Source of the DNA: Longimicrobiales bacterium
GTDB lineage: Bacteria; Gemmatimonadota; Gemmatimonadetes; Longimicrobiales; RSA9
Reading direction: 5' to 3'
Assembly (NCBI GenBank): GCA_035764935.1
Contig: DASTYK010000137.1
Span: forward strand, 1 to 45,519
DNA length: 45,519 nt
Shown: positions 39,859 through 44,770 of the stretch, piece after piece
Position numbering within the stretch: position 1 is the first letter of the stretch
Layout of the letters: each line of letters starts with the position of its first letter
Made by a program: the position numbers and the translations under genes
Notes under the pieces: generated by a model
What the model was told of the DNA's origin: nothing
Databases searched by the model: none
What the model saw: the letters and a program-made list of their open reading frames with translations, nothing else

Positions 39859-41434
39859 CCGGCTGAGCTACGCGCTACCGGACGGTCGCACCCTATTCAA
39901 CGAACTCACGATTTCCTTTGGCCGGGAGCGAACCGGCCTGGTCGGACCGAACGGCTCCGGCAAGACTACGCTCGTGCGCCTGTTGTCCGGAGATGCGCGT
40001 CCCACTGCTGGCAGCGTTCACCGGAGCGGCCTGGTCGCGCTGCTGCCGCAGGACTTCCGGCCGCCCCCGGGCGCTTCGCTGGCGGCCGTGCTGGGCGTGG
40101 AGAAAACGCTTGCTGCCCTGGAGCGCAGCGAGCGGGGCACAGCCACGCTTGCCGACATCGAGCTGATCGGTGATGACTGGGACCTGCGCGAACGAACCGC
40201 AGCGGTCCTCGCCCGCTTCGGGCTGACCGGCCTCACCCTCGACCGACCCCTCGCAGCCGTGAGCGGCGGCGAGACGACGCGTGTCGCACTCGCGGGACTG
40301 GTGCTGCAGCAACCGGATTTCCTGCTGCTGGACGAGCCCACGAATCACCTCGATGCGGCGAGCCGTGCTGCGCTGTACGCATTCATCGAGTCGTGGGATC
40401 GCGGTGCGCTGTGCGTCAGCCACGATCGCGAGCTGCTCCGCCGCATGGACCGGATCGTCGAGCTGTCCGCGTTCGGTGCACGCGTGTACGGTGGCAATTA
40501 CGATGAGTATCGCGCGATCCGTGACGCGGAGGACGCGGCGGCGGAGCGCGAGCTCGACAGTGCGCGTGCAGCGCTGCGCGCCGCGGAGCGGGACGCACGC
40601 GAGGTACGTGAGCGGCAGGCACGGCGCGAGGCGCAGGGACGTCGCAATGCGGCAACTGCGAACCTGCCGAAGATCCTGCTGAACGGGCGCAAGGCGCGTG
40701 CACAGGAAACAGGAGCCCGGGTGCGTGCGATCACGGCGCGCGAGGTGGAGGAGCGGCGGGAACGTGCGGCCGCGGCCAGGCAGCGGGTCGAAGAACGTGA
40801 GCGTCCTCGCTTCGCCCTGCCGTCGACGAACCTGCCTGCAGGACGCGTCGTGCTCGAGATCACGGAAGCGTGCGTCACGTTTGCGGGCGCTACCGATGCG
40901 ATCCTCGAGAACGTTTCCCTGCGCGTCGTCGGACCGGAACGTGTTGCCGTCGTGGGGCCCAACGGTTCCGGGAAGACGACACTGCTGCGTGTCGCCCTGG
41001 GCGAGCTCACGCCGGACAGCGGTGACGTCCGGCGCCTGCCGGATGATGAGATCGGATTTCTCGACCAGGCTGGTGCGCGGCTCGACCCTGCACTGAGCGT
41101 GCTCGACAATTTCCGTGGCTGCCAACCGGAGCTGGACCCGACGGCCACACGCTACGCGCTCGCCCGGTTCCTCTTCTCCCACGAGGCGGCGCTGCAGCCC
41201 GTCGGCACGCTCAGCGGCGGGGAACGATTGCGTGCCTCACTCGCGTGCGTGCTCGGGGGCCGGACACCGCCGTCACTCCTCGTGCTCGACGAGCCGACGA
41301 ACCACCTCGACCTCGACGCGCTCGCGGCACTGGAGGACGCGCTGCAGGCGTATGACGGCGCACTGCTCGTCGTCAGCCATGACCGGCCGTTCCTCGATGC
41401 GATCGGCGTACAGCGGCGTGTGCGGCTCGGGTAA
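39815..41434 (+). CDS. ABC-F ATPase (third in window)
   Basis: 539 residues, soluble. Two ABC domains: GPNGSGKTT, AVSGGETTR and [13 protein letters not shown]; then GPNGSGKTT, LSGGERLR and [11 protein letters not shown], with a long Arg/Ala/Glu-rich coiled linker (about 245-345). It acts on ribosomes by family; it lacks the Uup C-terminal coil. ATG 39815 is chosen, AGGAG 9 bases upstream; the frame upstream has no ribosome site. Its last 62 bases overlap the 3' end of the convergent Mrp gene. Confidence 0.92.
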   Translation: MQTTTGPRDARISTDRLSYALPDGRTLFNELTISFGRERTGLVGPNGSGKTTLVRLLSGDARPTAGSVHRSGLVALLPQDFRPPPGASLAAVLGVEKTLAALERSERGTATLADIELIGDDWDLRERTAAVLARFGLTGLTLDRPLAAVSGGETTRVALAGLVLQQPDFLLLDEPTNHLDAASRAALYAFIESWDRGALCVSHDRELLRRMDRIVELSAFGARVYGGNYDEYRAIRDAEDAAAERELDSARAALRAAERDAREVRERQARREAQGRRNAATANLPKILLNGRKARAQETGARVRAITAREVEERRERAAAARQRVEERERPRFALPSTNLPAGRVVLEITEACVTFAGATDAILENVSLRVVGPERVAVVGPNGSGKTTLLRVALGELTPDSGDVRRLPDDEIGFLDQAGARLDPALSVLDNFRGCQPELDPTATRYALARFLFSHEAALQPVGTLSGGERLRASLACVLGGRTPPSLLVLDEPTNHLDLDALAALEDALQAYDGALLVVSHDRPFLDAIGVQRRVRLG

Positions 41435-42515
41435 TCGCGCGCTCGGTCTCGATCTGCACGCCGCCCAGCCGTGACGCGACCTCCTCCGCCAGCGTGACGA
41501 ACGCCCGTGCGGTGCCGCTGTCGGGAGCGGCCAGCACCGGCGGCGCACCCGCATCTTCGCCTTCGACGACCGGCTCCTCGAACGGGACCGCAGCGAGCAG
41601 CGGTACATCAGCCGCCGCGGCGAGACGCTCGCCGCCACCGGCGCCGAACGGATGCGAGCGCCGACCACACGCGCACTGCGCGAAGCTCATGTTCTCCACG
41701 ATGCCGAGCACGGGTACGTCGAGTTTGCGGAACATCTCGAGCGCCTTGCCGGCTTCCAGCGTGGCGAGTCGCTGCGGCGTGGTTACAACGACGGCCCCGT
41801 CCACGACGATCGACTGCGCGAGCGACAGCGGCACGTCTCCAGTGCCGGGCGGCAGGTCCACGACCAGCACGTCCAGCTCCGGCCACACCACACCACGGGA
41901 GAACTGCTTGACGGCTTTGCCCACCATCGGTCCGCGCCAGACTGCCGGTGACTGGGGCCCGAGGAAGAAGCCGAACGACACGATCGACAGTCCGTGTATT
42001 TCCAGCGGAATGATCTTGCGGTCGTCGGTGAGACGCACGTGTCTCGCACCGTCTTCGATGCCCATGATGACCGGAAGGGACGGGCCGTAGATGTCGGCAT
42101 CCATCAGGCCGGTGCGCAGGTTCAATCCGTGCAGCGCCAGGGCGAGGTTGGCGGCAACCGTGCTCTTGCCGACGCCACCCTTCCCTGCGCCGACCGCAAC
42201 CACGCGCTTCACTCCCGGCAGGCGCGCGCGATCCGCCCACGGGTCGAGCTTGCCGCCCCGACGCTCCGGCGGCACGATCTGCACTTCGGTGCGCACCGCG
42301 CCGGCCTCGGCCAGCCGCTCACGAATCGCCGCACGGAGCAGATCGGGCACATCTTCGCGGGTCGTGGAAAGGACGAGGGAGACGTGCACCCGGCCGTTGC
42401 GGACGGCAACGCTGCGTACCAGCCGGAGGGACACGATGTCGCGCTTCAGACCCGGATAGGGTACGCGCGCGAGCGCCGCCCGGACCTGCTCCTCAGTGAG
42501 GCTGCTTTCCACCAT
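41373..42515 (-). CDS. apbC: Mrp/ApbC-family iron-sulfur carrier ATPase
   Basis: 380 residues. An N-terminal DUF59/MIP18 domain (1-90), then a P-loop ATPase with GAGKGGVGKSTVAANLA (deviant Walker A), MDADIYGPS and VDLPPGTGD. The conserved carboxy-terminal C-x-C (Cys-Ala-Cys in FAQCACGRRSHPFG) should bind the Fe-S cluster. It carries Fe-S clusters to target proteins. ATG 42515 has GAGG about 10 bases upstream. Its 3' end overlaps the ABC-F gene antisense by 62 bases. Confidence 0.94.
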   Translation of the reverse strand: MVESSLTEEQVRAALARVPYPGLKRDIVSLRLVRSVAVRNGRVHVSLVLSTTREDVPDLLRAAIRERLAEAGAVRTEVQIVPPERRGGKLDPWADRARLPGVKRVVAVGAGKGGVGKSTVAANLALALHGLNLRTGLMDADIYGPSLPVIMGIEDGARHVRLTDDRKIIPLEIHGLSIVSFGFFLGPQSPAVWRGPMVGKAVKQFSRGVVWPELDVLVVDLPPGTGDVPLSLAQSIVVDGAVVVTTPQRLATLEAGKALEMFRKLDVPVLGIVENMSFAQCACGRRSHPFGAGGGERLAAAADVPLLAAVPFEEPVVEGEDAGAPPVLAAPDSGTARAFVTLAEEVASRLGGVQIETERAITRAAHAAVRRSHRGTAGHG

Positions 42516-42585
42516 CCTCGCCTCCACGCTCAGGGTCCGGCGACGCACGCAGCCGGACCGCGCTACCGCCGCTCCCGGATGTCAG

Positions 42586-43365
42586 CTATGCGCAGCATGC
42601 AATGCCGACGGCCGCACGCTCGGCGCTCGCCCGATCGATGTCCCATGCTTCGCGCGGACTCAGCGCGTCGTCTCCTGCCATCTGCCGGAGCAGTGCCGCA
42701 TTGCGTACCGCTACCACGGCTCCGCGCTGCTGGATCGCCCCCGCCTGCCGCAGCCGGCGGAGCGCACGGGCAACGCCTTCCCGCGTCGTACCCAGCTCCG
42801 CTGCCAGCTCCTCCTGCGTCTGCGACATCCGGTACGCCGCTCCAGTGTTCAACACACCGGACCGCCCGGCCTGCGCGAGCACCGCGGACGCGACACGCAT
42901 CGGCACGTCCTGCAGCGAGAGTCGATCGACCAGCGCGGCCAGCGTACGCACCTGGGCGCCGAGCTCGCACACCAGTGCCTGGGCTACGTCCGGATGGCTG
43001 CGGTACAGCGCCTGTACTTCACCGAGCGGCAGAAACAGCACACGGCCGTCCTCGATGACCCGCGCCGAAGCCAGGTACGGCCCCCCGTCGAACATCGAAA
43101 CCTCACCCAGCGATTCGCCGGGGCCGATCACGCCGAATACCTGCTCCTGGCCCGTCCGGTTCGCGCGGTACGTGCGCACCGCCCCTTCCACCACCAGGTA
43201 CAGTCCGCGACACGGTGCCCCTTCCCGGAACAGCACCTCGCCGCGTCTCACGCCCCGGCAGACGGAGCGGCGCACGAGCCCCTCGCATTCCTCCGCGGTG
43301 AGCGAGGCGAACAGCGGCTGCCGCGCGACGACGCGTGCCGGTTCATGGCTGCAGCGAGCTGTCAT
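42586..43365 (-). CDS. CRP/FNR-family transcription regulator
   Basis: 259 residues. A cyclic-nucleotide-binding fold (about 15-135; GEVLFREGAPCRGLYLVVEGAVR, FGVIGPGESLGE) and a C-terminal HTH (about 175-225). The recognition helix reads TTREGVARALRRL, matching CRP Arg180, Glu181 and Arg185, the residues that read TGTGA. N-terminal Cys (5, 27, 36, 52) do not follow the FNR Fe-S spacing. ATG 43365 has GGAG 7 bases upstream. A perfect TGTGA-N6-TCACA site lies at 44058-44073, upstream of the adjacent DUF542-cupin genes. The ligand is not predictable. Confidence 0.92.
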   Translation of the reverse strand: MTARCSHEPARVVARQPLFASLTAEECEGLVRRSVCRGVRRGEVLFREGAPCRGLYLVVEGAVRTYRANRTGQEQVFGVIGPGESLGEVSMFDGGPYLASARVIEDGRVLFLPLGEVQALYRSHPDVAQALVCELGAQVRTLAALVDRLSLQDVPMRVASAVLAQAGRSGVLNTGAAYRMSQTQEELAAELGTTREGVARALRRLRQAGAIQQRGAVVAVRNAALLRQMAGDDALSPREAWDIDRASAERAAVGIACCA

Positions 43366-43382
43366 CGGGTCTCCGCCTTGCA

Positions 43383-43406
43383 CTTGAGTCTCATTCTCAA
43401 GTATAC
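43383..43406 (-). promoter_or_regulatory. Promoter -10 and dyad upstream of the CRP-family gene
   Basis: CTTGAG (43383-43388) and CTCAAG (43396-43401) flank 7 bases. On the minus strand a -10-like TATACT (43400-43405) overlaps the dyad edge; an imperfect -35 may lie 18 bases upstream (CTGTCG). The dyad resembles FNR-type TTGA/TCAA half-sites and could be an operator for itself or another regulator. Confidence 0.45.
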
Positions 43407-43443
43407 AGCGCCTGCGCCTGCACCGACAGGACAGCGCCACGGC

Positions 43444-43758
43444 TCAACCGGGCCGGGGGGTAATGATGGCCAGGAAGCGGAGGCGGTCGCCGTCGTCGGC
43501 TTTCATCGAGTGGACCTCACCGGGCGCATAAACGGCGGTGCCGCCGGTCTGGAGTTGGGCCGTGCCGGTCTCGCCGATGAACGTGCCGCTGCCCTCGATC
43601 ACCTGCACGAGCACGCTGGACTCGCTGGTGTGCGGCAGGACCTCCTGCCCCGGGAGGAGGTGAAAGCCGACGATCCTGACGTTGGGCTCGTCGTGCAGCA
43701 GGGCCGTGGCAGGCCGATCGGGACGCGGCGCCGGTCCCTCCGGTGGCAGGACGATCAT
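43444..43758 (-). CDS. Small single-domain cupin protein
   Basis: 104 residues, one cupin barrel. The first motif region (PHTSESSVLVQVIEGSG) and the second (GGTAVYAPGEVHSM) give possible metal ligands His and Glu/His. The substrate is not predictable. Its ATG overlaps the DUF542 stop by four bases, so both are one unit; 78 bases then separate it from the regulator gene. Confidence 0.85.
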   Translation of the reverse strand: MIVLPPEGPAPRPDRPATALLHDEPNVRIVGFHLLPGQEVLPHTSESSVLVQVIEGSGTFIGETGTAQLQTGGTAVYAPGEVHSMKADDGDRLRFLAIITPRPG

Positions 43759-43970
43759 GCGACGTCCGTCAGCGCCTGGTTCAGTGCTGCCAGCAGCTCG
43801 TCGGGGTCGGCACCGTCGCGCACGGCGGCGTCCTGGATCGAGCTGGCTCCCCCACAGCACGAGTCGATGCCGAAGCGGTTGAAGACCGCCACGGTGACGG
43901 GATGCATGCGGACGACCTCGTTCACGGTCCGATCTGCCGTGATCACGCCTGCGATTTCCGTATCCTTCAT
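43755..43970 (-). CDS. DUF542/ScdA-N domain protein
   Basis: 71 residues. It equals the N-terminal domain of RIC/ScdA/YtfE iron-centre repair proteins: NEVVRMHPVTVAVFNRFGIDSCCGG, with the conserved Cys-Cys. The hemerythrin domain with the di-iron site is absent. RIC proteins repair Fe-S clusters damaged by NO or oxidants; this short form may be a regulator or adaptor. ATG 43970 has AGGAG 8 bases upstream. A CRP-type site lies about 90 bases upstream. Confidence 0.88.
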   Translation of the reverse strand: MKDTEIAGVITADRTVNEVVRMHPVTVAVFNRFGIDSCCGGASSIQDAAVRDGADPDELLAALNQALTDVA

Positions 43971-44030
43971 CGAGCACTCCTGGTTTCTCGTTTCTGCGCT
44001 GTTAACCGGCGTGTGAGCCGGCGCGTGAGG

Positions 44031-44037
44031 ACGATAA
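44031..44037 (-). promoter_or_regulatory. Candidate -10 of the DUF542-cupin operon
   Basis: Minus-strand TTATCGT. A start near 44024 would put the centre of the CRP-type site (44065.5) at about -41.5, the class II activation position. The -10 is a weak match, so the geometry is suggestive only. Confidence 0.3.
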
Positions 44038-44057
44038 GACCGCTCCACCCGAAAGAC

Positions 44058-44073
44058 TGTGACTCACGTCACA
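44058..44073. promoter_or_regulatory. Perfect CRP-type operator TGTGA-N6-TCACA
   Basis: TGTGACTCACGTCACA, both half-sites exact with the 6-base spacer of the E. coli CRP box. It lies between DUF542 (minus) and the S4 paralogue (plus), and could serve either. Confidence 0.7.
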
Positions 44074-44164
44074 GACCGGACCAGCCGGCGGGTGCGATCC
44101 TGTCACGTTCGTACCGAAACGGCAGCACGGGCCACCGGAACCCACAAGGGACGTCAGGAAGACG

Positions 44165-44770
44165 ATGCAGAGACCGAGACTGAAGATCCTCCGTCGCCTG
44201 GGCACACCGCTGCCCGGTCTGACCCGCAAGGAGGCGCGCTGGAAGACGTATCCGCCGGGTGCGCACGGCGCGGGACAGCGCCGGCGCGTCAGCGGCTACG
44301 GTGCACGGCTGCGGGAGAAGCAGAAGCTCCGCTGGCATTACGGGATCTCCGAGCGACAGCTGCAGGGCGTCTTCGAGGAGGCCAGTCGGCAGACGGGTGC
44401 GACGGGGGAGCAGCTGCTCGCGCTCCTGGAGCGGCGGCTGGACAGCGTCGTGTTCCGGCTCGGCCTTGCGCCGACGATTCCCGCCGCGAGGCAGCTGGTT
44501 GGCCATGGCCATGTGCTCGTGAACGGAGCACGCGTCGACCGCGCGGGCTTCCGCGTGTCTGCCGGCGACGAGATCGCGGTCTCGCCGCGCGGAAGGCGCA
44601 TCGCGGACGTCGCTCGGGCGGTGGAGCACGGCCCGGAGGTGAAGCTGCCCGGATGGCTGGCGATCGACCCCGGCGATCCGTTTCGCGGTCGGGTCGTCGG
44701 TGCGCCGATGCGCGCGGACACTCCGTTCATCGTGGACGAGACGGCGATCGTGGAGTTCTACGCGCGCTGA
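44165..44770 (+). CDS. rpsD: Ribosomal protein S4 paralogue, zinc-free type
   Basis: 201 residues, normal S4 length. S4 nucleates assembly of the 30S body. Strong matches: LREKQKLRWHYGISERQL, LLALLERRLDSVVFRLGL, and the S4 RNA-binding motif TIPAARQLVGHGHVLVNGARVD. The start lacks the zinc-binding Cys of C+ S4 and looks like plastid/cyanobacterial S4 (KILRRLGTPLPGLTRK). It is not next to rpsM, rpsK or rpoA, so a second rpsD may exist elsewhere. AGGAAGACG gives the ribosome site. Bactofilin follows after 164 bases. Confidence 0.92.
   Translation: MQRPRLKILRRLGTPLPGLTRKEARWKTYPPGAHGAGQRRRVSGYGARLREKQKLRWHYGISERQLQGVFEEASRQTGATGEQLLALLERRLDSVVFRLGLAPTIPAARQLVGHGHVLVNGARVDRAGFRVSAGDEIAVSPRGRRIADVARAVEHGPEVKLPGWLAIDPGDPFRGRVVGAPMRADTPFIVDETAIVEFYAR

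Follow-up and report, generated by a model that had tools for sequence, protein, structure and literature searches.

Regulators of the DNR/NnrR type activate nir and nos genes, nnrS and sometimes ric, following class II promoter logic. Gemmatimonadota are counted among the nitrous-oxide reducers, and a literature search found no description of how N-oxide genes are controlled in this phylum. The operators of DNR/NnrR read TTGAT-N4-ATCAA and TTGCG-N4-CGCAA (PMC1274295). HcpR of Desulfovibrio, a CRP/FNR-family regulator with R180 and E181 in its helix, has the operator wTGTGAnnnnnnTCACAw (Rodionov et al. 2005, PMC1274295); in some genomes its targets include dnrN (ric) (PMC1274295). The described regulators of ric are NsrR, DnrD, NorR and SrrAB, and that account names no direct Fur or CRP-box site (PMC9268430).

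Here we examine a gene cluster at a contig end in a Longimicrobiales bacterium. The stretch of DNA analysed, 45,519 nucleotides in all, is called the window. An earlier note had read the cluster as a self-contained circuit of a CRP-family regulator, a DUF542-cupin gene pair and a perfect TGTGA-N6-TCACA box. We consider it probable that the cluster is indeed a small self-contained switch for iron-centre repair, responsive to N-oxide/NO and to iron, and resembling HcpR and DNR in its working.

The gene cluster

The features of the cluster are as follows.

41373-42548, minus strand: Mrp/ApbC iron-sulfur carrier with N-terminal DUF59 (PF10609 and PF01883); alternative ATG at 42515
42586-43365, minus strand: CRP/FNR-family regulator, 259 aa (PF00027 and PF13545), recognition helix TTREGVARAL, Cys in a PCRGLY motif
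43384-43400, no strand assigned: TTGAGAATGAGACTCAA, an operator resembling a Fur box; it overlaps the candidate promoter of the regulator
43400-43405, minus strand: TATACT, candidate -10 of a second promoter that would serve the regulator; found by eye, unlisted by a strict promoter scan
43444-43758, minus strand: small cupin, 104 aa (PF07883); 4-base overlap between its start and the stop of DUF542
43755-43970, minus strand: stand-alone DUF542/ScdA_N protein, 71 aa, with an FGIDSCCGG motif (open reading frame and PF04405)
44031-44036, minus strand: -10 hexamer TATCGT, starting 29 nt past the centre of the box
44058-44073, minus strand: predicted CRP-type operator, TGTGACGTGAGTCACA in the minus-strand reading, centred at position -41.5 in the promoter predicted for DUF542
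44165-44770, plus strand: rpsD (ribosomal protein S4), divergent from the cluster

Transcription on the minus strand runs from DUF542 through the cupin and the CRP-family regulator to Mrp/ApbC, and domain profile matches bear out these four identities, which had been proposed from the sequence alone. The regulator gene stands as it was first read, except that its start is most likely the ATG at 43365 (span 42586-43365).

The DUF542 protein has the ScdA_N domain and Cys-Cys motif of RIC/YtfE proteins (PF04405, 58.9 bits; FGIDSCCGG). It lacks their hemerythrin-like di-iron domain: it is only 71 aa long and scores 42 bits with TIGR03652, where 205 are needed. No other DUF542 or ric gene was found in the genome to which the window belongs (G000; 3.83 Mb, about 96% complete). 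Five genomes, from two families, have DUF542 paired with a cupin. In these cupins two His are kept, and Ser replaces the second His of motif 1. Judged by this linkage, the partner of a stand-alone DUF542 may be a cupin in place of a hemerythrin. In the sister family or families, the same box precedes full-length RICs.

The box and its promoter

The box TGTGACTCACGTCACA at 44058-44073 has no mismatches and is the sole perfect one within the window. It lies 95 bp from the DUF542 start codon, upstream of the DUF542-cupin pair as first described. Pattern searches of G000 found two perfect boxes in 3.83 Mb. Since about 0.9 would be expected by chance, as estimated from base composition, rarity in the genome is by itself little proof. 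What gives the box significance is that it stands 95 bp from a start codon and that it recurs in relatives. Boxes with one mismatch occur at 29 places, versus 14 in controls. A second target sought among them was rejected: 28 sites were examined for the -10 register, 27 of them one-mismatch boxes, and the register appeared in three (one precedes a MetE-like gene), which is about chance. We saw no second target in G000 with both a perfect box and a -10. The genome has nosZ, with no box in the 116 bp upstream before the contig ends.

What is the evidence that the box belongs to a promoter? We aligned 25 boxes on their centres, each oriented towards its target gene. A hexamer xAxxxT starts 29 bases past the centre in 22 of the 25 promoters (window included) and in 15 of 16 genomes. 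No other -10 offset is found in more than 5 of the 25, and a randomly shifted control reaches at most 8. Between box and gene the sequences of relatives are otherwise only about 30% identical to that of the window, which argues that the register is a selected spacing and not the result of recent common descent. Boxes inside unrelated open reading frames mostly lack it. A -10 at +29 puts the box centre at -41.5, the position of a class II activator. The earlier note had placed the -10 and the box centre in just this way, and TATCGT at 44036-44031 shares its register with the set of 25 promoters. From its sequence the DUF542 promoter would thus be of the class II CRP-dependent kind, with a site at -41.5, a -10 at a fixed register and a predicted transcription start near 44024. 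A sigma-70 promoter scan of the window gave no match for it, as expected of class II promoters without a -35.

The palindrome also lies 99 bp upstream of rpsD, a neighbour absent from the earlier note. It might therefore serve that divergent promoter and not DUF542, but the hexamer in the -10 register on the rpsD side is CGATCC, without the A/T, as against TATCGT on the DUF542 side, and in relatives the boxes face ric and N-oxide genes. We regard this assignment as extremely unlikely; rpsD is probably outside the circuit.

A repressor could bind the box instead. Rex, which senses NADH, has sites with a TGTGA...TCACA skeleton, in the form TGTGAA...TTCACA. The other perfect box in G000, TGTGAACGGATTCACA, lies just upstream of a Rex-type repressor gene (L017 4470-4485; G000:C142:14469-14484), where it probably serves Rex autoregulation. 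This site reads TGTGAA-N4-TTCACA, however, whereas all 13 sites linked to ric, DUF542 or Mrp read TGTGAY-N4-RTCACA. In every linked site TGTGA is followed by a pyrimidine and TCACA is preceded by a purine, so the two classes of site differ. The fixed position at -41.5 is, moreover, that of an activator. That the box at DUF542 is a Rex operator seems to us very unlikely. A one-mismatch site of Rex type, TGTGAAATCCTTCACG, stands directly before a NuoA-like gene (L036 2191-2206).

Recurrence in related genomes

The earlier note had suggested looking for the gene order and the box upstream of DUF542 in related genomes, and the search was positive. In 154 genomes of the same order the extended pattern CTGTGAYNNNNRTCACA has 53 matches, versus 4 for reversed controls, and where a perfect box precedes a ric/DUF542 gene the distance is about 95-120 bp. 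A de novo search for spaced dyads, blind to the box, ranked TGTGA-N6 first, in 10 of 29 ric/DUF542 upstream regions; in shuffled controls no dyad occurred in more than three. Further targets were read from the flanking DNA. The box precedes cytochrome c-nosZ operons in three genomes (G062, G075 and G087), a copper nitrite reductase-like (nirK) gene in G087, the crp gene itself in G075, Mrp in G004 and G007, and CopD- and COX1-like membrane genes. G004 has one box in front of CopD-crp-COX1-like-DUF542-cupin and another in front of Mrp. The reading of the cluster as an Fe-S or NO stress module gains from this regulon (ric, cytochrome c-nosZ, nirK, CopD/COX1-like genes and Mrp) and from a Fur box in the cluster, described below. 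The signal may be NO, to judge by the neighbours (nosZ, nirK and ric) and by precedent.

Other boxes, with no ric or nos genes nearby (at pdh, lysS and others), for the most part have no -10, and we took them for chance matches. Two further sites are recorded here as observations. In G072, where no DUF542 was found, a perfect box with the -10 register precedes an RND-type efflux adaptor/pump pair (L066/L239; G072:C73). A perfect box without the register lies at the junction of Rieske-type ferredoxin and SufS-like genes in a suf operon of G134 (L103 2278; G134:C13).

In Acidobacteriota a crp-ric gene pair is kept in dozens of loci (L154-L212). The perfect box is not enriched there, and one locus, L162, combines box and -10. 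The HTH of these ric-adjacent Crp/Fnr proteins reads TVREL(I/V)SRN, and GTGAC-N4-GTCAC occurs in 5 of 39 upstream regions. The acidobacterial pair likely uses a different operator.

The regulator and a predicted second input

Which protein binds the box? The regulator of the window belongs to the CRP/FNR superfamily (PF00027, 86.4 bits; PF13545, 45.8 bits). A profile of ten regulators found it to be the only full-length Crp/Fnr protein in G000; two further matches cover the cNMP-binding domain only. The R-E-x-V-x-R helix that the earlier note pointed out is present as TTREGVARAL, and an alignment of 10 relatives shows no variation at R-E or at the distal R. Because R180 correlates with G3 of the operator and E181 with A6 (PMC1274295), the invariant R-E predicts a TGTGA-type box. 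By this measure, an R180-E181-x-V-x-R185 helix beside a TGTGA-N6-TCACA site, its DNA specificity would be that of CRP. From the identity of the helix, the adjacency of gene and site and the absence of an alternative, we infer that this protein binds the box.

CRP-like specificity need not mean control by cAMP. In E. coli CRP the Arg that binds the cAMP phosphate is R82. This Arg (GPRTSSA in M. tuberculosis CRP) aligns with Tyr (GPYLASA) in the window regulator, and relatives have Tyr-Pro at the position. The NCBIfam CRP model gives 58.5 bits where 266 are needed. On this alignment the protein does not appear to be a cAMP receptor protein proper. A CRP responding to cAMP or another metabolite would place the box under carbon and energy control in place of NO/Fe-S control, and two facts speak for it: among the best PDB relatives are actinobacterial CRPs that bind cAMP, and the box is identical to the E. 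coli CRP consensus. Against it are the Tyr just described and the order-wide targets, which are N-oxide and iron-centre genes. We think metabolite control unlikely.

Another possibility is that the box is bound by an NO-type regulator missing from the assembly, and that the regulator in the window has another site or answers to Fur only. In a tree the window regulator groups with one of two G134 copies and with the G151 copy (support 99/97). This subclade is separate from, and sister to, the regulators adjacent to ric and nos; G134 carries both types. A His present in 26 of 31 Gemmatimonadota homologues is replaced by Gly in the window protein, which retains one conserved Cys. The lost His and the separate subclade mean that the signal it senses may differ. 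They also favour a missing regulator, as do the incompleteness of G000 and the position of DUF542-cupin in G004 and G134, where the pair adjoins the other, nos/ric-linked type. The recognition helix, however, is the same, and no second regulator was found in G000. We judge a missing regulator about as unlikely as metabolite control.

The preferred reading, a switch run by the window's own regulator, includes a second operator, located between the cupin and regulator genes and immediately following the TATACT hexamer. Exact copies of TTGAG-N7-CTCAA number three in G000 and none in controls; their locations are feoA/feoB, a gene for an SBP_bac_6-type iron transporter, and crp of the window. An operator held in common with iron-uptake genes has the distribution predicted for a Fur box, and Fur-family proteins are present. 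Crp and Fur boxes also share a promoter in two relatives: in G007 the two boxes stand before Mrp, with the Fur motif 51 bp beyond the Crp box; in G004 it is 53 bp beyond another Crp box. On present evidence 43384-43400 is a Fur box, with iron or NO-damaged Fur as the predicted second input. This arrangement points to two transcription units, one with DUF542-cupin driven from the Crp box and one with crp-mrp driven from the Fur-covered promoter. A sequence scan found no terminator between them, which makes readthrough from cupin into crp possible.

The proposed switch and its described counterparts

The switch would work as follows. The CRP-family regulator would sense N-oxide/NO or a related redox signal, bind TGTGA-N6-TCACA at -41.5 and activate the DUF542-cupin operon in class II fashion. 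Readthrough may raise expression of its own gene and of mrp too. The Fur box over the second promoter would let crp-mrp respond to iron loss, whether by starvation or through Fur inactivated by NO. The task of protecting iron centres or restoring them would then fall to DUF542, with its Cys-Cys motif, together with the cupin and the Mrp carrier. The gene content, the box, the -10 register across the order, the Fur box and the single regulator are observed in the sequences. Binding by the regulator, the direction of control, the NO signal and the functions of the proteins are the parts that we infer.

A wider generalization is possible, though we hold it as doubtful: that the N-oxide regulon of Gemmatimonadota is of class II, works from CRP boxes and is cross-wired with Fur, and that the lineage of the window has replaced the hemerythrin-type repair protein by stand-alone DUF542 plus cupin, served by an Mrp carrier under the same small circuit.

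The findings matter in several ways. A box with a fixed -41.5 register is a precise and portable rule for finding the N-oxide regulon of Gemmatimonadota. In the window the regulon has a minimal form open to reconstruction and test: one regulator and one perfect box-promoter. Through the Fur box, nitrosative repair would be tied to the supply of iron. The DUF542-cupin pair raises the question of what role DUF542 has without its di-iron partner.

How does the circuit compare with those already described? It is like HcpR in its CRP/FNR-family regulator, CRP-like box, R/E helix residues and ric-type targets. It differs in that the Gemmatimonadota targets are ric/DUF542, nosZ, nirK and Mrp, with dual wiring to Fur. 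An hcp gene (TIGR01703) was found in none of 27 genomes, while controls were detected; the regulon therefore falls outside the definition of HcpR, although its working resembles that of an HcpR regulon. As with DNR/NnrR, denitrification genes appear to be controlled, with the box before cytochrome c-nosZ and nirK in relatives (none shown for G000), but the operator is not theirs: the top dyad is TGTGA-N6-TCACA and the box TGTGAY-N4-RTCACA. With RIC/YtfE/ScdA the window protein shares DUF542 (ScdA_N) and its conserved CCGG motif (PMC9268430), but it has 71 aa and no hemerythrin di-iron domain, and is linked to a cupin and Mrp. The Mrp/ApbC protein has the DUF59 and P-loop NTPase of NUBPL-type carriers; what sets it apart is that its gene belongs to an N-oxide-type regulon or stands under the box of one. 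The outline of the circuit, a CRP/FNR N-oxide regulator over iron-centre repair, is ordinary, and its promoter evidence unusually clear. Its variant parts are the stand-alone DUF542, the cupin, Mrp and the Fur box.
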